This document shows, piece after piece, positions 16,041-24,274 of a DNA stretch of 64,000 nucleotides. The DNA is from Azoarcus sp. CIB (GTDB taxonomy: Bacteria; Pseudomonadota; Gammaproteobacteria; Burkholderiales; Rhodocyclaceae). The stretch lies in the NCBI RefSeq assembly GCF_001190925.1, contig NZ_CP011072.1, positions 3,968,001 through 4,032,000 of the forward strand. The letters are read 5' to 3'. A program made the position numbers and the translations under genes. The notes under the pieces were generated by a model, which searched no databases, had not been told where the DNA came from, and was given only the letters and a program-made list of their open reading frames with translations. The first letter of the stretch is position 1. Every line of letters begins with the position of its first letter.

Positions 16041-16910
16041 TCAGCGGGCCGGCGGCGTTTCCTCGCGCTCCGTCACCTCGCCCGGTGGAAGGATAGCGCG
16101 GATCGGATCGCCGTCCCGGATCGACCCCGGCGCGCGCGGCGCCGGCTCGCCGACCATCGACTCGATCAGGATCGTCACGCGCCGGTTGCGCGCGCGGCCT
16201 TCCTCGTTGGTGTTGTCGGTGAGCGGTCGCTGATCCGCGTAACCGGCTGCGGTAAGACGGGCGCCGCGCATGCCCGACTCGATGAAAAGCCGCACGACCG
16301 TCGAGGCGCGCACCGCGGACAGCTCCCAGTTCGACGGGAAACGCCCGTTGCGGATCGGCAGGTTGTCGGTATGACCTTCCACCGTCACGGGAAACTCCGC
16401 GCGCGCGAGCACTTCCGCAACCGCCCGCAACGCGGCGACGGCGGACGGCGCGAGGACCGCATCGCCCGGCGCGAACAGCACCCGGGCGTTGATCTCGACC
16501 GAGATTCCGCGCGCCCCTTCGGACACGCGGACCTGCCCGCCCTGCGTGAGCGGATCCAGCACGCGACGGATGTCCTCAGCCATCGTCGTCATGCGCTTGT
16601 ACTCGGCGCGGCGCCGCTTCTCGGCCTCTTCGTCGGGGGTCGGCGACAGCGGCGCGGGCTTGGGCGGGGCGACCGCCGGCGGCGGCGCGATGACCGGGTC
16701 GCCCGGCACATTCACGGTGATGTTACGGAAGGCGTTGATCAGCGAATCGGACAGGACGCGGTACTTGCCCTCGTTCACCGACGACAGCGAATACATCACG
16801 ACGAAGAACGCGAACAGCAGCGTGATGAAGTCGGCGTAGGACACGAGCCAGCGATCCTGATTCTCGTGGTTCGCGTCGTCCAGCTGGCGGTGTCGGCGGT
16901 GGCGTCGCAT
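16041..16910 (-). CDS. motD: Flagellar stator protein, MotB family (MotD)
   Basis: 289 residues. A single N-terminal transmembrane helix (about 22-42, WLVSYADFITLLFAFFVVMY) carries the stator aspartate in YADF. A Pro-rich plug/linker follows (about 70-90), then an OmpA-like peptidoglycan-binding domain (about 140-275) with VEGHTDNLPI and NWELSAVRASTVVR. It pairs with the MotA-type protein immediately upstream (10-base spacing). Gene position after fliA and next to a MotA paralogue matches motC-motD of Pseudomonas, the second stator set. The C-terminal tail is acidic/Pro-rich and specific to this protein. Confidence 0.9.
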   Translation of the reverse strand: MRRHRRHRQLDDANHENQDRWLVSYADFITLLFAFFVVMYSLSSVNEGKYRVLSDSLINAFRNITVNVPGDPVIAPPPAVAPPKPAPLSPTPDEEAEKRRRAEYKRMTTMAEDIRRVLDPLTQGGQVRVSEGARGISVEINARVLFAPGDAVLAPSAVAALRAVAEVLARAEFPVTVEGHTDNLPIRNGRFPSNWELSAVRASTVVRLFIESGMRGARLTAAGYADQRPLTDNTNEEGRARNRRVTILIESMVGEPAPRAPGSIRDGDPIRAILPPGEVTEREETPPAR

Positions 16911-16920
16911 CGCGGCACGC

Positions 16921-17661
16921 TCAGGCGATGTAGCCCTGCATGCGGCTCTCGATGATGCGCGGGTTGTCGCCGTTGGCGATGCCGACCAGCCCGTCGACGA
17001 GCATCTCGCGCTGCGACACTCCGTCGGCCACGTAAGCCATCAGCTTCTTCGACATCGGCAGGAAAACGAGGTTGGCGAAGCCCACGCCATACACCGTCGC
17101 GACGAAGGCCACCGCAATGCCGGCGCCCAGCTTCGACGGATCGGTCAGGTTCTCCATCACGTGGATCAGGCCCAGCACCGCACCGAGAATACCCAGCGTC
17201 GGCGCGTAGCCGCCCGCAGCCTCCCAGATGCGCGCGCCCTGGCGCATCTGCGCCGCCCAGGCGTCGATCTCGACCTCCAGCACCTCGCGCAGCCGTTGCG
17301 GCTCGACGCCATCGACAAGGAGCTGCAGCCCCTTGCGGGTGAATGCGTCGTTGATGCGCGGGATCTGCGCCTCCAGCGCCAGCAGCCCCTCCTTGCGCGC
17401 GATCTGGCTCCAGCTCGTCGCCTGGCGGATCAGCGCCGCATGGCTCGACGGCGGCGGCACGAAGACCCAGCGGGTCATGCGGATGCCTGCGCGGAAAACC
17501 TTCAGCGGGCTCTGCAGCATCACCGCACCCAGCGTGCCGCCGATCACGATCAGGAAGGCAGTGGGCTGCAGGAGCGATGCGATATGGCCGCCCTCGATCA
17601 CCTGCCCCATGATCAGGGCGGAGATGCCGAGGGTGAGCCCGACGATGCTGATCTTGTCCAT
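16921..17661 (-). CDS. motC: Flagellar stator protein, MotA family (MotC)
   Basis: 246 residues with four predicted membrane helices: two at the N terminus (about 5-50, including LIMGQVIEGG and FLIVIGGTLGAV) and two at about 150-205 (APTLGILGAVLGLIHVMENL, GIAVAFVATVYGVGFANLVF). The cytoplasmic loop between contains the charged residues that contact FliG. With MotD it forms the H+-driven (by family) stator. I use the ATG at 17661 because it begins the first helix directly; the longer frame to 17844 runs back into fliA. It is 25 bases downstream of fliA. Confidence 0.9.
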   Translation of the reverse strand: MDKISIVGLTLGISALIMGQVIEGGHIASLLQPTAFLIVIGGTLGAVMLQSPLKVFRAGIRMTRWVFVPPPSSHAALIRQATSWSQIARKEGLLALEAQIPRINDAFTRKGLQLLVDGVEPQRLREVLEVEIDAWAAQMRQGARIWEAAGGYAPTLGILGAVLGLIHVMENLTDPSKLGAGIAVAFVATVYGVGFANLVFLPMSKKLMAYVADGVSQREMLVDGLVGIANGDNPRIIESRMQGYIA

Positions 17662-17686: not shown

Positions 17687-18466
17687 TCAGGCGCCGGACG
17701 GCGGATTCTTGGGCGGCCGTCCGCGACGCGCCCCGGTCGTCGCGCCGGCCGGCCGCGCGGTCCCCAGGATGCGCGAGCGCAGGCGCGCCACAGCCTGGCT
17801 GTGGAGCTGGCACACGCGCGACTCGGAAACGCCCAGCACCTCACCGATCTCGCGCAGGTTGAGCTCCTCGTCGTAGTACAGCGCCATCATCAGTTTCTCG
17901 CGCTCGGGCAGATCTTCGATCGCCCGCACGAGCGCGTTACGCATGTCCGCCTTCTCGAGGATGTCGGCCGGATTCGACTCGTGCGCGCCGAGGTGGCGCT
18001 CGAAGTAGTCCTCGCCCTCGCCGTCGGTGAAGTCCTCGAAATGCACGAGCTGGTAGCCACGCGCGTCCTGCAGCATGCGCTGGTACTCGACGAGCGGCAT
18101 CCCCAGTAATTCCGCGAGCTCCACCTCGCTCGGCTGGCGCCCGTTGCGCTGCTCGAGCTCGTGCACCGCCGACTCGATGCGGCGCATGTCGCGCCGCAGG
18201 CTGCGCGGCAGCCAGTCGTTCTCGCGCAGGCCGTCGAGCATCGCGCCGCGGATGCGCTGCACCGCGTAGGTCTCGAACTGCGCGCCGAGCCCATCCTCGA
18301 AACGGCTGATCGCATCCAGCAGGCCCATCATGCCGTTCTGGATCAAGTCATCCATCTGCACGCTGGCCGGCAGCTTCGCCATCAGGTGGTAGGCGATGCG
18401 CTTGACCAGGGGGGCATAAGCCTCCACGAGGTGGTTCTTGTCGAGATTACCAGCTGCGTCGTACAT
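17687..18466 (-). CDS. fliA: Flagellar sigma factor sigma-28 (FliA)
   Basis: 259 residues, near the usual 240. Region 2 includes LVKRIAYHLMAKLPASVQMDDLIQ and GAQFETYAVQRIRGAMLDGL; region 3 has PRSLRRDMR; region 4 (about 185-235) is the helix-turn-helix with LNLREIGEVLGVSESRVCQL. The last 20 residues are a basic Ala/Gly/Arg/Pro-rich extension. It directs RNA polymerase to late flagellar and chemotaxis promoters and is normally held by FlgM. Start: ATG at 18466, giving MYDAAG. It lies downstream of flhF-flhG, the order seen in polar flagellates. Confidence 0.95.
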   Translation of the reverse strand: MYDAAGNLDKNHLVEAYAPLVKRIAYHLMAKLPASVQMDDLIQNGMMGLLDAISRFEDGLGAQFETYAVQRIRGAMLDGLRENDWLPRSLRRDMRRIESAVHELEQRNGRQPSEVELAELLGMPLVEYQRMLQDARGYQLVHFEDFTDGEGEDYFERHLGAHESNPADILEKADMRNALVRAIEDLPEREKLMMALYYDEELNLREIGEVLGVSESRVCQLHSQAVARLRSRILGTARPAGATTGARRGRPPKNPPSGA

Positions 18467-18576: not shown

Positions 18577-19392
18577 TCAATCCCATGTCTGCCTCCCCCG
18601 GACTGGCGCCGCGCCGGCCCGTGCGTTGCCGAAAGCCGCGAGACGCCTCAGGAAGGCAGCCTCCGCGTCGCGCGGCAACGCTTCCGCGGCGCTGTGCCCC
18701 AGCCCCGCAACCAGCTCGTCGCGCTCGAGTTCGCCCAGCCAGGCGAGCGGCACGCCGACATGGCGGCGCACGAGTTCGCTGAGGCTGCGAAAGAAGGCCG
18801 CGGCGTCGGCACGGCCGCGCGCACCACACACCGCCACGTGCAGCGAGCCCGCCCCGGCGGCAGCGAGCCCCTTGATCACCTGGTAGGCGTCCGTCGCACC
18901 GCTGCGGCTCGCCTCGGCGACGACCAGCCGGCGCGGTGCCGCCAGCGCGAAGGGCGACGGATCTGCGGCGCTCTCGCACGCCGAATGGATCAGGATGAAG
19001 CTCGCGGGGCGCTGCAGCGTACGCAACGCATCGAGCACGCAATCGCGCCGCTCGCCGTCGAGCAGCGGCAACGCGAGGGCGCAAGCCCCCACCGGTACGC
19101 GCCCGAGCAGACCCGGCACCGGCTGCAGCAACTCGCGCGCCGAACTGCGGCCGCCGAGCACGCCCAGCAGATCGCCGCCCGGAGGCAGGCCGAGCACGCC
19201 GGCCAGCGACTCCTCGCCCTGCACCTCGTCGAGCAACAGCACGCGCTGGCTGTGCCCGGCAATGCGGTGCGCCGCCTGCAACGCGACATGCGCACGGCGG
19301 CGCCCGGTCGCGTACAGCGCGACAACCGTCGGAGGGGCGCGCCGGAACAGGCGCCGCAGCCCGGCCGCCTGGTCTTCCCGCGGGTCGATCAT
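18577..19392 (-). CDS. flhG: FlhG/FleN-like protein lacking a Walker A loop
   Basis: 271 residues in the exact position of flhG/fleN, one base after flhF. The N terminus has DQAAGLRRLF (residues 7-16), matching the DQAxxLR helix by which FlhG stimulates the FlhF GTPase. The MinD/ParA domain follows, but the expected deviant Walker A (KGGxGKT) is replaced by YATGRRRAHVALQAAHR. The Walker A' region reads VLLLDEVQG instead of a D-A-D signature. The MinD-like fold still seems present, so this probably regulates flagellar number or placement through FlhF without ATP-driven dimerisation. Frame and codon use match its neighbours, so it is not an obvious pseudogene. Confidence 0.75.
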   Translation of the reverse strand: MIDPREDQAAGLRRLFRRAPPTVVALYATGRRRAHVALQAAHRIAGHSQRVLLLDEVQGEESLAGVLGLPPGGDLLGVLGGRSSARELLQPVPGLLGRVPVGACALALPLLDGERRDCVLDALRTLQRPASFILIHSACESAADPSPFALAAPRRLVVAEASRSGATDAYQVIKGLAAAGAGSLHVAVCGARGRADAAAFFRSLSELVRRHVGVPLAWLGELERDELVAGLGHSAAEALPRDAEAAFLRRLAAFGNARAGAAPVRGRQTWD

Positions 19393-19393
19393 G

Positions 19394-20860
19394 TCAGACT
19401 CCGCCGGCCGCCAGCATCAGCGCCGCTTCGTCGCCCTGCAGCTTCCACGGCGACTCGGTCGCCTGCTCGCGCAGCGCGCGGTGCAGCAGGTAGGCGCGAT
19501 TCGGCAGGTGCAGGTCCTCAGGCACGCGTTGGCCGTTGGCGACATAGAACACATTGAGCTCGTTGCGCACGGCCACATCGAGCGCCGGAGCGAGCGATGC
19601 CGCCTCGTCGACCTTGGTCAGCACGCAGCCGGCCAGGTCCGGTCCACTGTAAGCACGCACGACGTCGGCGAGCGTGTCGCCGCGGCAGGTCGAATTGAGC
19701 AGCAGCAGGCGGCGCACGTCGCCGGCACCGGTCAGCATCGCCGCCTGCTCGGCCACCATCTTGTCGCGCTGGCTCATGCCCATCGTGTCGATCAGCACCA
19801 TGTGCTTGTTGCGCAGCTCGGCAAGCGTCTGGCGCAGGTCGGCGGCGTCGCGCACCGAGAACACTGGCACCCCGAGGATGCGGCCGTAGATGCGCAGCTG
19901 CTCCTGCGCGCCGATCCGGTAGCCGTCGGTCGTGATCAGTGCCAGCCGCTCGGCGCCGTGGCGCACGACGCAGCGCGCAGCGAGCTTCGCCGTCGTCGTG
20001 GTCTTGCCCACGCCCGTCGGCCCGACCAGCGCGAACACGCCACCACGATCAATGATGTCCGAATCCGACGCGACCGCACGCAAGTCGCGCGCGAGGGCGT
20101 TCTTCACCGCGGCGCGGGCGTCCTCCGGCGAAGCTTCTTCATCCACGGATTCGGCCAGCCGGCGTGCAAGCACGCTGGAGAACCCGGCTTCGAGCAGCTC
20201 GCCGACGATATCCGCCCGTGCGGGCGCCTTGCGCCGGGTCTCGCCCCACGCAAAGCCCGCGAGCTGGCGCTCGATCATGCTGCGGATCCCGGCCATTTCC
20301 TTCATCAACTGGACGTTCGCTTCCTGCAGCGAACGGATGCGTTCGTCCTCGAGCTCGCGTGCGGGCTCGGCGGCACGGACCTGCACTGCGACCGGGGCCG
20401 GCTGCTTCGGGGCAGGAACCGTCGTCGCGGCAAGCGGAGCGGGCGCGGCGTCGGGCGCACTCCAGTCGTCGATCGAGTACTGCTCGCTCAGTGCCGCGGC
20501 GCGCGTGCGCATCACGTAATCGGCCGTCTCCATGCGCGGCGGGTTGAACGGGCGGATGATCTTTGCCGGCTTCGGCGTCGCAGCCGGAGCCGCGGGCGCA
20601 CGTCCCGACAGGCTCACCTGGAAGTCGTCGTCCTCGGCCGCCGGTGCCATGGGGGCCGACCGGGGGGCCGGCTGTGGCGCAGGCGCGGCAGCGCGCGGCG
20701 TCCCCGGCAGCGCTCCGACGTCTTCCGCCGGCAGGGCCAGGATCTCGACGCCGCCCTCGACCGCGCGGTTCGACAGCACGATGGCATCGGCACCGAGTTC
20801 GGCCTTCAGGGCACGCAGGGCCTCACGGGCGGAGGGGGCAAAGTAGCGCTTGACGTTCAT
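19394..20860 (-). CDS. flhF: Flagellar biosynthesis SRP-type GTPase FlhF
   Basis: 488 residues. An N-terminal basic/B domain with a long Ala/Pro-rich linker (about 50-150) precedes an NG domain. The G1 P-loop is VGPTGVGKTTTTAKLAA (about 282-298); ITTDGYRIGAQEQLR, the LIDTMGMSQRD element and the TKVDEAASL segment follow. FlhF sets the position and number of polar flagella and recruits early basal-body parts. It lies about 130 bases downstream of flhA and directly before flhG, consistent with a flhA-flhF-flhG-fliA transcript. Confidence 0.94.
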   Translation of the reverse strand: MNVKRYFAPSAREALRALKAELGADAIVLSNRAVEGGVEILALPAEDVGALPGTPRAAAPAPQPAPRSAPMAPAAEDDDFQVSLSGRAPAAPAATPKPAKIIRPFNPPRMETADYVMRTRAAALSEQYSIDDWSAPDAAPAPLAATTVPAPKQPAPVAVQVRAAEPARELEDERIRSLQEANVQLMKEMAGIRSMIERQLAGFAWGETRRKAPARADIVGELLEAGFSSVLARRLAESVDEEASPEDARAAVKNALARDLRAVASDSDIIDRGGVFALVGPTGVGKTTTTAKLAARCVVRHGAERLALITTDGYRIGAQEQLRIYGRILGVPVFSVRDAADLRQTLAELRNKHMVLIDTMGMSQRDKMVAEQAAMLTGAGDVRRLLLLNSTCRGDTLADVVRAYSGPDLAGCVLTKVDEAASLAPALDVAVRNELNVFYVANGQRVPEDLHLPNRAYLLHRALREQATESPWKLQGDEAALMLAAGGV

Positions 20861-20993: not shown

Positions 20994-23096
20994 TCAGCGC
21001 GCGGCCCCGCCCACCATCGCCGTGACGCGGATCGTGCGCGTCTCGGGCACTTCCGAATTCGCGATGACCTTGAGCGAAGGCACCGCGCGGCGCAGGAAGC
21101 GCGACAGCAGCCAGCGCAGCTGCGGCGGCACCAGCAGCACCGGCGGCAGCCCCATATCTTCCTGCCGCTGCGACACCTCGGCCGCGTGCCGCAGCATGCC
21201 GTCGGCGAGGCTCGGCTCGATGACGCCGCCATCGCCGCCCCCCGTCGACATCGCCTGCATGAGGATGCGTTCGAGCGCCGGATCGAGGGCCATCACCTGG
21301 ATATCGGCATTGCCCGGGAAGAGGCTCTGCAGGATCGAACGGCCCAGCGCCTGACGCACCCGCGACGTGAGCTCGAGCGGATCCTGGATACGCGGCGCGT
21401 TCTCGGCGAGCGTCTCGATGATCGTGCGCATGTCGCGGATATTGACCCCTTCTTCGAGCAGGTTCTGCAGCACGCGCTGCACCGTCGCGACCGGCAGCAG
21501 CGCCGGCACGAGGTCCTCGACGAGCTTCGGCGTCGTCTTGCCGATATGGTCGAGCAGCGCCTGCGTCTCCTGGCGTCCGAGCAGTTCCGCGGCGTGGTTC
21601 AGGATCAGGTGGTTGAGGTGCGTCGCGACCACCGTGCTCGCGTCGACGACCGTGTAGCCCAGCGCATGCGCCTGCTCGCGCTGGCTCGCGTCGATCCAGT
21701 ACGCGGGCAGATCGAACGCCGGATCGCGCGTCTCGCGCCCGGCGAGCGGCCCGGTCACGCGCCCCGGGTTGATCGCCAGATACTGGCCCGGATAGGCCTC
21801 GCCCGAACCGATCTCGACACCCTTCAAGGCAATGCGGTACGCGTTCGGCTTGAGTTCGAGGTTGTCCCGGATATGCACCGGCGCCGACAGGAAGCCGACG
21901 TCCTGCGCGAACTTCTTGCGCAGCCCGCGGATGCGCTTCAGCAGCTCGCCGTCCTGGCCCTTGTCGACCATCGGGATCAGCCGGTAGCCGACTTCCAGCC
22001 CCAGCACATCCACTGGAGCGACGTCGTTCCAGCTCGCCTCCTGGCTCTCGGCCGGGGGCACCGCCGCCGCAGCCTCGGGCGCCACCCGTGCAGTCGCGGC
22101 CGCCTCCTGGCGCGTGATGCCGACGCGCCGCCAGGCGAGCCAGCCGAGCGAACCGGCCATCAGGATGAACACCAGGTTCGGCATGCCGGGAATCAGGCCC
22201 AGCACGCCGATGATTACCGCCGTGAGCATCAGCACCTGCGGATTCGAGAACACCTGATTGATCACCAGGCCGCCCACGTCCGCATCGTCGCCGACGCGCG
22301 ACACGACCATGCCCGCCGCGACCGAGATGATCAGGGCCGGGATCTGCGCGACGAGGCCGTCGCCGATCGTCAGCAACGTATAGGTCTCGACCGCGACACC
22401 GGCCGGCATGTCGTGCTGCACGATGCCGACGAGCAACCCGCCGATGATGTTGATCAGCAGGATCACGATGCCCGCGACCGCATCCCCACGCACGAACTTC
22501 GACGCACCGTCCATCGCGCCGAAGAATTCCGACTCCTGCGCAACCTCCTTGCGCCGGCGCTTCGCTTCCGCCTCGTCGACCAGCCCCGCATTGAGGTCGG
22601 CATCGATCGCCATCTGCTTGCCGGGCATCGCGTCCAGGGCGAAGCGCGCGCTCACTTCGGCGATGCGCCCCGCGCCCTTCGTCACGACGACGAAGTTGAT
22701 GACGACGAGGATCACGAACACCACCAGGCCGATCGCGGTGTTGCCGCCGACGAGGAAGTGGCCGAAGGCCTCGATGACCTTGCCCGCGGCGTCAGGGCCG
22801 GTGTGGCCCTCGAGCAGCACGATGCGCGTCGACGCGACGTTCAGCGCCAGGCGCAGCAGCGTCGTCACCAGCAACACGGTCGGGAATACCGAAAACTCCA
22901 GCGGCCGGCGCGTGTACATCGCCACCAGCATCACCATCACCGACACGGCGATGTTGAAGGTGAAGAACACGTCCAGCGCGAACGGCGGCAGCGGCAGCAC
23001 CATCATGGACAGCACCATGATGATGAATATCGGCGCGCCCAGCATGCGCAGGTTGGTCGGCGTCAGCAGCGCACGCAGGTTGAGGACATCGTTCAT
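20994..23096 (-). CDS. flhA: Flagellar type III export gate protein FlhA
   Basis: 700 residues, the normal FlhA length. About eight helices occupy residues 15-330; a conserved cytoplasmic loop (FHIPEP region, here KGAGRIAEVSARFALDAMPG) contains charged residues used in proton coupling. The large C-terminal cytoplasmic domain (about 360-700) docks chaperone-substrate complexes, with GREYRDPAF-like and PELVEDLVP-like stretches recognisable (GRETRDPAF, KLVEDLVPALL). It forms the nonameric export gate with FlhB. The ATG at 23096 gives the usual short N terminus. It lies 38 bases downstream of flhB. Confidence 0.95.
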   Translation of the reverse strand: MNDVLNLRALLTPTNLRMLGAPIFIIMVLSMMVLPLPPFALDVFFTFNIAVSVMVMLVAMYTRRPLEFSVFPTVLLVTTLLRLALNVASTRIVLLEGHTGPDAAGKVIEAFGHFLVGGNTAIGLVVFVILVVINFVVVTKGAGRIAEVSARFALDAMPGKQMAIDADLNAGLVDEAEAKRRRKEVAQESEFFGAMDGASKFVRGDAVAGIVILLINIIGGLLVGIVQHDMPAGVAVETYTLLTIGDGLVAQIPALIISVAAGMVVSRVGDDADVGGLVINQVFSNPQVLMLTAVIIGVLGLIPGMPNLVFILMAGSLGWLAWRRVGITRQEAAATARVAPEAAAAVPPAESQEASWNDVAPVDVLGLEVGYRLIPMVDKGQDGELLKRIRGLRKKFAQDVGFLSAPVHIRDNLELKPNAYRIALKGVEIGSGEAYPGQYLAINPGRVTGPLAGRETRDPAFDLPAYWIDASQREQAHALGYTVVDASTVVATHLNHLILNHAAELLGRQETQALLDHIGKTTPKLVEDLVPALLPVATVQRVLQNLLEEGVNIRDMRTIIETLAENAPRIQDPLELTSRVRQALGRSILQSLFPGNADIQVMALDPALERILMQAMSTGGGDGGVIEPSLADGMLRHAAEVSQRQEDMGLPPVLLVPPQLRWLLSRFLRRAVPSLKVIANSEVPETRTIRVTAMVGGAAR

Positions 23097-23134: not shown

Positions 23135-24274
23135 TCAGTCGGGCGCGCCGGGGTCCATGTCTGCGGGCACCGGCAGCTTGCCGGGCGCCGCGGGCGGAAG
23201 TCCGCCGTGAGCCATCCAGTGGTTGAGCTGATACACGTAGGCCATCACCTCGGCCACCGCCGTGTACAGCGCCCCCGGCACCGCCTGCTCCAGTTCGCAG
23301 TGCTTGTACAACGCACGCGCCAGCGGCGGCGCCTCCAGCATCGGCACCTTGTGTTCCTTCGCCAACTCGCGGATCTTCAGCGCGACCTCGCCGCGTCCCT
23401 TCGCGACGACGATCGGCGCGCGCATCTTGTCCGCGTCGTACTTCAGCGCCACCGAGAAGTGCGTCGGGTTCGTCACCACCACATCCGCCATCGGCACCTG
23501 CGTCATCATGCGGCGACGCGCCATCTCGCGCTGCATCGCGCGGATGCGCCCCTTCACCTGCGGATCGCCTTCCTGTTCCTTGCTCTCGCGCTTGACCTCT
23601 TCCTTCGTCATGCGCAGCTTCTTGTTGTACTGCCACAGCTGGAACGGCACGTCGATCAGCGCGAGGATCGCCAGCCCCATGATGATCAGCAGCGTCGCGA
23701 ACAGCACCATCTCGAGAAAATCCGGCACCGCCGCTTCCACCGCCTCGCCCGTCAGGGCGAAAATGTGCTCGTGCTCGCGCCACACCGCGAAGACGCCCAT
23801 CAGCCCGACCACCGCCGCCTTCAGAAGCGATTTCACCAGCTCGGCCAGCCCGTGCATCGAGAACATGCGACCGATGCCCTGGATGGGGTTCATGCGTTCG
23901 AGCTTCAGCCCCAGCATCTTGGGCGCGAACACGAAGCCCCCCATCAGGACCGGCGCCGCGATCGCCGCCAGCACCAGGATCCCGAACAGCGGCATCATCG
24001 TCAGCAGCGCATCGGTGAACAGATCGCCGAAGCTCTCCAGCATCAGCTTCGCATCGAAGGCACGTGCCCGCTCGATCGCGAAGCCGGCGCGCAACATGCC
24101 GAGGATGCGCCCCGAGATCCATTCCCCCATCATCCACAGCGCGCCGATGCCCGCGATCAGGACCAGAAAGGTCGACAGCTCGCGCGACTGCGGAACCTGC
24201 CCCTCCTCGCGGGCCTGTTCCAGCCTTCGTGACGATGGCTGTTCGGTTTTCTCGAGATCGCTGTCTTCGGCCAC
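23135..24274 (-). CDS. flhB: Flagellar type III export switch protein FlhB
   Basis: 379 residues, as in E. coli (382). The N terminus (AEDSDLEKTEQPSSRRLEQA) is typical; four membrane helices lie between about 30 and 210. The cytoplasmic domain carries the autocleavage motif Asn-Pro-Thr-His (VVTNPTHFSVALKY, about 266-279), which controls the hook-to-filament substrate switch. It is the first gene of the minus-strand flagellar cluster seen here, with 169 bases before the DUF192 gene on the same strand. Confidence 0.95.
   Translation of the reverse strand: MAEDSDLEKTEQPSSRRLEQAREEGQVPQSRELSTFLVLIAGIGALWMMGEWISGRILGMLRAGFAIERARAFDAKLMLESFGDLFTDALLTMMPLFGILVLAAIAAPVLMGGFVFAPKMLGLKLERMNPIQGIGRMFSMHGLAELVKSLLKAAVVGLMGVFAVWREHEHIFALTGEAVEAAVPDFLEMVLFATLLIIMGLAILALIDVPFQLWQYNKKLRMTKEEVKRESKEQEGDPQVKGRIRAMQREMARRRMMTQVPMADVVVTNPTHFSVALKYDADKMRAPIVVAKGRGEVALKIRELAKEHKVPMLEAPPLARALYKHCELEQAVPGALYTAVAEVMAYVYQLNHWMAHGGLPPAAPGKLPVPADMDPGAPD

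Follow-up and report, generated by a model that had tools for sequence, protein, structure and literature searches.

The window analyzed here, a stretch of 64,000 nucleotides from Azoarcus sp. CIB, carries a flagellar gene cluster on its minus strand in the order flhB-flhA-flhF-[flhG-like gene]-fliA-motC/motD. We take the names of flhA, flhB, fliA, and the motC/motD pair from recognition of their sequences, while flhF is additionally identified by the model TIGR03499. The genes and features are as follows:

23135..24274, minus strand: flhB, a 379-aa ORF (name by sequence recognition)
20994..23096, minus strand: flhA (ORF and gene order; name by sequence recognition)
19394..20860, minus strand: flhF, the SRP-type GTPase partner, 488 aa (TIGR03499, 267 bits, above the curated cut-off)
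18577..19392, minus strand: FlhG-derived protein of 271 aa, predicted pseudo-ATPase (ORF; FleN/FlhG homology in the PDB; synteny; pN/pS)
19342..19374, minus strand: predicted FlhF-activating enhancer helix DQAAGLRRLFR, residues 7-17 (direct reading, alignment, codon conservation)
19285..19311, minus strand: former deviant Walker A loop, now ATGRRRAHV without GK[TS], residues 28-36 (alignment to FleN and 29 canonical FlhGs)
19222..19230, minus strand: former DxD (Walker A'), now DEV, residues 55-57 (D55-E56-V57; reading and alignment)
17687..18466, minus strand: fliA, sigma 28 (ORF; name by sequence recognition)
16041..17661, minus strand: motor stator pair, motC/motD-like (ORFs 16921..17661 and 16041..16910; names by sequence recognition)

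The gene at 18577-19392 is the minus-strand 271-aa ORF; the frame read from the plus strand over these positions was rejected. It follows flhF after a single base, with fliA next, and its residues 7-16 read DQAAGLRRLF, so that both the position and the motif given in the initial annotation, which named no strand, hold.

FlhG is described as a conserved ATPase of the MinD type, with a central role for its nucleotide cycle in setting how many flagella form and where. The protein of the window has the DQAxxLR enhancer helix of this family (DQAAGLR, residues 7-13), but the P-loop region of FleN and FlhG is represented by LYATGRRRAHV instead of the deviant Walker A motif KGGxGK[TS], and DEV stands where FleN and FlhG have DxD. 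Both the P-loop and the signature lysine have been lost, as has the catalytic Asp, and the alignment (ATGRRRAHV and DEV) bears out the earlier statement that KGGxGKT is replaced and the Walker A' DxD missing. Phmmer searches of the PDB returned FleN as the best match (E 7.6e-10 to 1.7e-9), followed by FlhG (E 4e-6 to 1e-5); no further protein was matched at E<=1. No NCBIfam model matches the protein at E<=1, and Pfam gives no ATPase family, its single match lying far under the cut-off. An AlphaFold model (17 close relatives) deserves little confidence (mean pLDDT 57, pTM 0.60, helix region below 50), and its Foldseek matches at ranks 1-9, all of them FleN, FlhG, or MinD, are therefore supportive only. 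Gene position and FleN/FlhG homology together lead us to assign the gene, by synteny and descent, as the flhG/fleN orthologue. As the protein lacks two of the features by which this ATPase is defined, we call its product a FlhG-derived pseudo-ATPase rather than a FlhG ATPase.

The same combination is found in 16 named relatives of 65-97% identity, including Aromatoleum, Azoarcus, Thauera, Pseudothauera, and MAGs, all of which have an open frame, the same helix, and no P-loop (a seventeenth match, from Zoogloea, is only partial and was left out of the alignment). A sequencing or frameshift error masking a normal loop, which the initial annotation had named as grounds for refutation, was rejected, because nothing speaks for it and the pattern recurs in these independently assembled relatives and in further genomes. 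For the window's group, a simple counting method applied to pooled pairs from 9 genomes, uncorrected for shared branches, gives an overall pN/pS of 0.18. Constraint is strongest at helix codons 4-18 (pN/pS 0, without a single amino-acid change), followed by residues 141-232 (0.11) and the surroundings of the former P-loop (0.15), while constraint is weakest (0.34) in the last 39 codons, at the end where FlhG ATPases carry a membrane-targeting helix. The gene is hence maintained under purifying selection. A pseudogene, whether by relaxed selection or by a broken frame, was rejected for the window's group given the open frame in 16 relatives and the overall pN/pS.

To see how far this pattern extends, we drew an even sample of 300 genomes from the window's GTDB order, which corresponds to the former Betaproteobacteria (henceforth betas). 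FlhF matches at E<=1e-20 were found in 215 of them and lie above the family cut-off in 196. We examined 200 of the 215, having left out 13 whose matches (1e-20 to 1e-24) lie far below the family cut-off, and passed over 2 (G301 and G210) for which near relatives were taken. Together with 21 genomes from the window's own genus and family, this gave 221 genomes, of which 208 (187 from the even sample and the 21 extra ones) have an alignable FlhG with the helix; 3 of these (L166, L185, and L191), partial at the edge of their stretch, are in the motif counts but were left out of the trees. The 13 genomes outside this count comprise 2 with a drastically shortened FlhG (L144 and L249), 1 with a frameshifted gene (L253), 4 with a canonical but helix-less protein (L275-L278), 5 without detectable flhG (L098, L195, L231, L264, and L271), and 1 that cannot be judged because its stretch ends (L234).

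Among the 208 betaproteobacterial FlhGs beside flhF, the glutamine and leucine of the helix are present in every one (208/208 each), the arginine in 204, and the aspartate in 201, whereas GK[TS] is retained in only 35, the signature lysine in 17, and the catalytic Asp in 13. No protein of the 208 has GK[TS] together with the catalytic Asp. The even sample taken by itself gives the same picture (helix glutamine 187/187, GK[TS] 34/187). Across 42 families the glutamine is invariant, while GK[TS] is lost throughout in 29 families, kept throughout in 8, and mixed in 5. The glutamine count is no artifact of detection, since the helix-less proteins L275-L278 score 235-247 bits and the profile thus finds members that have no helix. 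Loss of the P-loop with retention of the helix is therefore a trait of most of the window's order and not a peculiarity of one species. The initial annotation, which had described an FlhF-activating helix kept and an ATP loop lost and had asked whether this is a lineage trait, was correct and captured something far more general than a single gene. The 35 proteins with GK[TS] could still bind ATP. At the far end of divergence, 3 genomes of one family (L192, L256, and L259, from G214, G115, and G152; family f49) encode a strongly divergent FlhG whose helix reads LHQGxxL, only the glutamine and one leucine of the motif being left.

These counts also bear on the idea that the altered loop has remained an unorthodox binding site for ATP or some other nucleotide, with the arginine-rich ATGRRRA taking the place of the lysines, so that the switch would be altered and not lost. 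Lysine is frequently replaced by arginine in betas (37/208 at the P-loop lysine and 50/208 at the signature lysine), the loop region is moderately constrained among close relatives (pN/pS 0.15), and the predicted overall fold appears MinD-like. Yet the letters and the length of the loop vary widely among betas, betas have also lost the catalytic Asp along with residues of the switch region that gammaproteobacteria conserve, and the shortened proteins described below have no loop whatever, which together make this reading quite improbable.

We reconstructed how the loss arose on a tree that FastTree built from 234 proteins, the P-loop and DxD columns being excluded. By parsimony, the state of GK[TS] changed at least 10 times on this tree, or was lost 19 times if regain is forbidden, and an IQ-TREE tree of 87 proteins gives at least 10 changes or 21 losses, respectively. 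On the latter, the minimum falls to 8 changes when branches of less than 80 support are collapsed and to 5 when the threshold is 90. Because no betaproteobacterial protein combines GK[TS] with the catalytic Asp, the simplest order is that hydrolysis was lost early and binding was then lost many times. The full series would thus run from early loss of the catalytic Asp over repeated loss of ATP binding to deletion of the core in one genus. The last of these steps is represented by a mini-FlhG, a 133-aa frame in 2 genomes of genus g26 (L144:263-661 in G166 and L249:2600-2998 in G044), in which the helix DQAEGLRRLLG is joined to the segment just before TDAYxxIK and the C-terminal part. The helix runs straight into the C-terminal part, which means that the greater part of the ATPase core has been deleted.

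Beside flhF, flhG is undetectable in 5 of the 221 betaproteobacterial genomes, and even the helix is therefore dispensable there. One of these (L098, from G230) has fliA directly after flhF, while the 4 others (L195, L231, L264, and L271, from G245, G120, G155, and G272; family f4) encode FlhF in a frame lengthened at its C-terminus to approximately 790-1030 aa, after which no flhG comes; the extension of these family f4 frames gives no score as FlhG. Separately, the gene of L253 (G228) appears frameshifted in one assembly and is open in relatives of that family. A reverse case is seen in L275-L278 (G242, G163, G279, and G252), where a MinD-like protein with canonical KGGxGKT and no DQAxxLR helix sits beside a divergent FlhF (113-123 bits), perhaps as part of a replaced flagellar system.

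Ordinary decay, by which flhG is on its way out and the helix is merely the last part to go, would account for the 5 complete losses beside flhF, including G230, and for the frameshifted copy. It is nevertheless very unlikely as a general explanation: in the window's group the frame is open at a pN/pS of 0.18 and the helix is the most constrained part of all, the glutamine is found in 208 of 208 proteins over 42 families, and both mini-FlhGs retain the helix.

Outside the betas, gammaproteobacteria show the opposite trajectory. We found FlhF in 69 non-beta gammaproteobacterial genomes (henceforth gammas) and read 67 of them, leaving out G362 and G447, where the gene lies near contig ends. In the first 29, which have the best FlhF scores, P-loop lysines, catalytic Asp, and helix glutamine are all in place without exception (29/29). 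KGGxGK[TS] is likewise present in 37 of the further 38, the remaining one having an incomplete frame, but a DQA/SQAxxLR helix is intact in only 15 of them; by reading, 17 are helix-less, 5 have a degenerate helix, and 1 is unreadable. This gives totals of 66/67 for KGGxGK[TS] and 44/67 for the intact helix. Betas have thus kept the helix and lost a complete ATPase site, whereas gammas have kept the loop and often lost the helix. Helix-less FlhG/FleN proteins (the 17 of 38, among L279-L316) are common in gammas, well beyond Pseudomonas-like proteins.

The partners of FlhG may differ between the two groups as well. A search with one FleQ N-terminal-domain model gave no match above 31.6 bits in 80 betaproteobacterial genomes and only weak ones in the window's genome (27.4 bits at most), while matches of at least 34 bits are present in 50 of the 67 gammas (27/29 and 23/38). 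All 17 gammas without such a match keep KGGxGK[TS], so that outside the betas P-loop loss is not tied to a missing FleQ match, and we rejected the absence of FleQ as a sufficient cause on these grounds. The contrast in FleQ rests on one evolutionary split, that between betas and gammas. FlhC was considered in the same manner: it is strong in the window's genome (295 bits) and in 48 of the 80 betas, with 2 more weak cases, and appears weakly in 2 of the 29 gammas. A raw association with the P-loop (GK[TS] in 7 of 45 genomes with strong FlhC versus 12 of 32 without; Fisher p 0.035) vanishes in phylogenetically independent pairs, where FlhC (FlhDC) shows no association with P-loop state, and FlhDC was therefore rejected as the driver of the loss.

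Another ATPase might have taken over what FlhG gave up. The initial annotation had suggested a search for a second, canonical FlhG or MinD, and this was answered in part: the window's genome encodes a canonical MinD (L005) plus ParA-, Mrp-, and NifH-like proteins, but no second canonical FlhG with the helix was found among the 7 of 11 AAA_31 matches that were read out (L006 having failed our filter and the last three being weaker matches), and this candidate was set aside within that scope. ATP-dependent counting could have moved to another ParA/MinD protein, e.g., the canonical MinD, working alongside FlhG. MinD is common also where FlhG is canonical, however, and neither a sequence sign of coupling nor anything in the region links MinD and FlhG, so that we regard this as unlikely despite the presence of a suitable protein and the reported effect of MinDE on flagellation in E. 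coli (PMC10963238, PMC12826062).

We rather favor the view that the gene of the window is a flhG/fleN orthologue that was probably reduced to a pseudo-ATPase and retained to activate FlhF without ATP. According to a December 2025 review, the helix glutamine of FlhG is co-catalytic for FlhF and completes its active site (PMC12826062). From the conservation of the helix, we infer that this glutamine would still insert into the FlhF GTP dimer and trigger hydrolysis, which would make betaproteobacterial FlhG an ATP-independent GTPase-activating protein for FlhF. The remaining MinD-like fold could serve as a constitutive scaffold, perhaps for FliM/FliN, with FlhG acting as a C-ring adaptor. Judged by its motifs, the protein of the window would not be expected to undergo ATP-dependent dimerization, and the jobs of this step, i.e., FlrA/FleQ control and membrane shuttling, may have been dropped or moved elsewhere. 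Betas seem to have replaced or lost the FlrA/FleQ branch; we propose that the ATP-dependent dimer became jobless for this reason, while FlhF still needed an activator. FliM was described to bind FlhG regardless of nucleotide and FlrA to bind only the ATP-bound dimer (PMC11236974). The claim that only the first function of FlhG appears intact is in keeping with the invariant glutamine, the purifying selection, and the mini-FlhG, but may go too far in its "only", as ATP-independent functions such as FliM binding may persist too. ATP binding and ATP-dependent counting have probably both been lost from betaproteobacterial FlhG, and the altered mode of flagellar counting or placement that had been put forward for this locus may exist. 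The pattern suggests that this large group controls its flagella without an ATP step regarded as central.

For the betas at large, we lean toward a wider reading in which FlhG is no longer an ATPase and FlhF is under the control of an ATP-independent protein whose only universal feature is one glutamine helix. Such a protein would be a stand-in for SRP RNA without the MinD engine, trimmed to a mini-protein in one genus, and evolution would have split the two jobs of FlhG one way in betas and the opposite way in many gammas. The literature searched, whose scope excluded subscription papers and preprints, yielded no report of betaproteobacterial FlhG without the ATPase site and no data on ATP binding, GTPase activity, or flagellar number for these proteins. 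The same review treats FlhG as an ATPase and as part of a conserved switch, and its available text, like that of PMC4905959, PMC7064773, PMC10241942, PMC12713375, and PMC11236974, contains no mention of an ATPase loss in betas (PMC12826062). The loss on the betaproteobacterial side was thus not found in print within this scope, while Pseudomonas FleN without the DQAxxLR motif has already been published (PMC12713375). With an invariant glutamine but not one complete ATPase site among 208 proteins, this large group of flagellated bacteria amounts to a natural separation-of-function series. It makes testable which tasks of FlhG need ATP, with FlrA/FleQ control and membrane shuttling on one side and FlhF activation and C-ring binding on the other, and the mini-FlhG offers a minimal activator to work with.

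Compared to known systems, the protein of the window shares with FlhG of Geobacillus (4rz2/4rz3), Shewanella, Vibrio, and Campylobacter the gene position after flhF, the DQAxxLR helix, and homology over residues 7-232, but differs in having neither KGGxGKT nor the catalytic Asp of DxD. Pseudomonas FleN (5j1j, 8pb9) is its best sequence match in the PDB and among its best fold matches, yet FleN is its mirror image in that it keeps the ATPase and has no DQAxxLR helix (PMC12713375); FleN also acts on FleQ, for which the 80 betas tested gave no strong match. MinD belongs to the same fold superfamily and is encoded in canonical form (L005) elsewhere in the genome, but retains the P-loop and has no DQA helix. 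The MinD-like proteins L275-L278, which 4 genomes of the window's order encode, likewise adjoin a relative of FlhF but present the reverse combination, with KGGxGKT intact and the helix absent.
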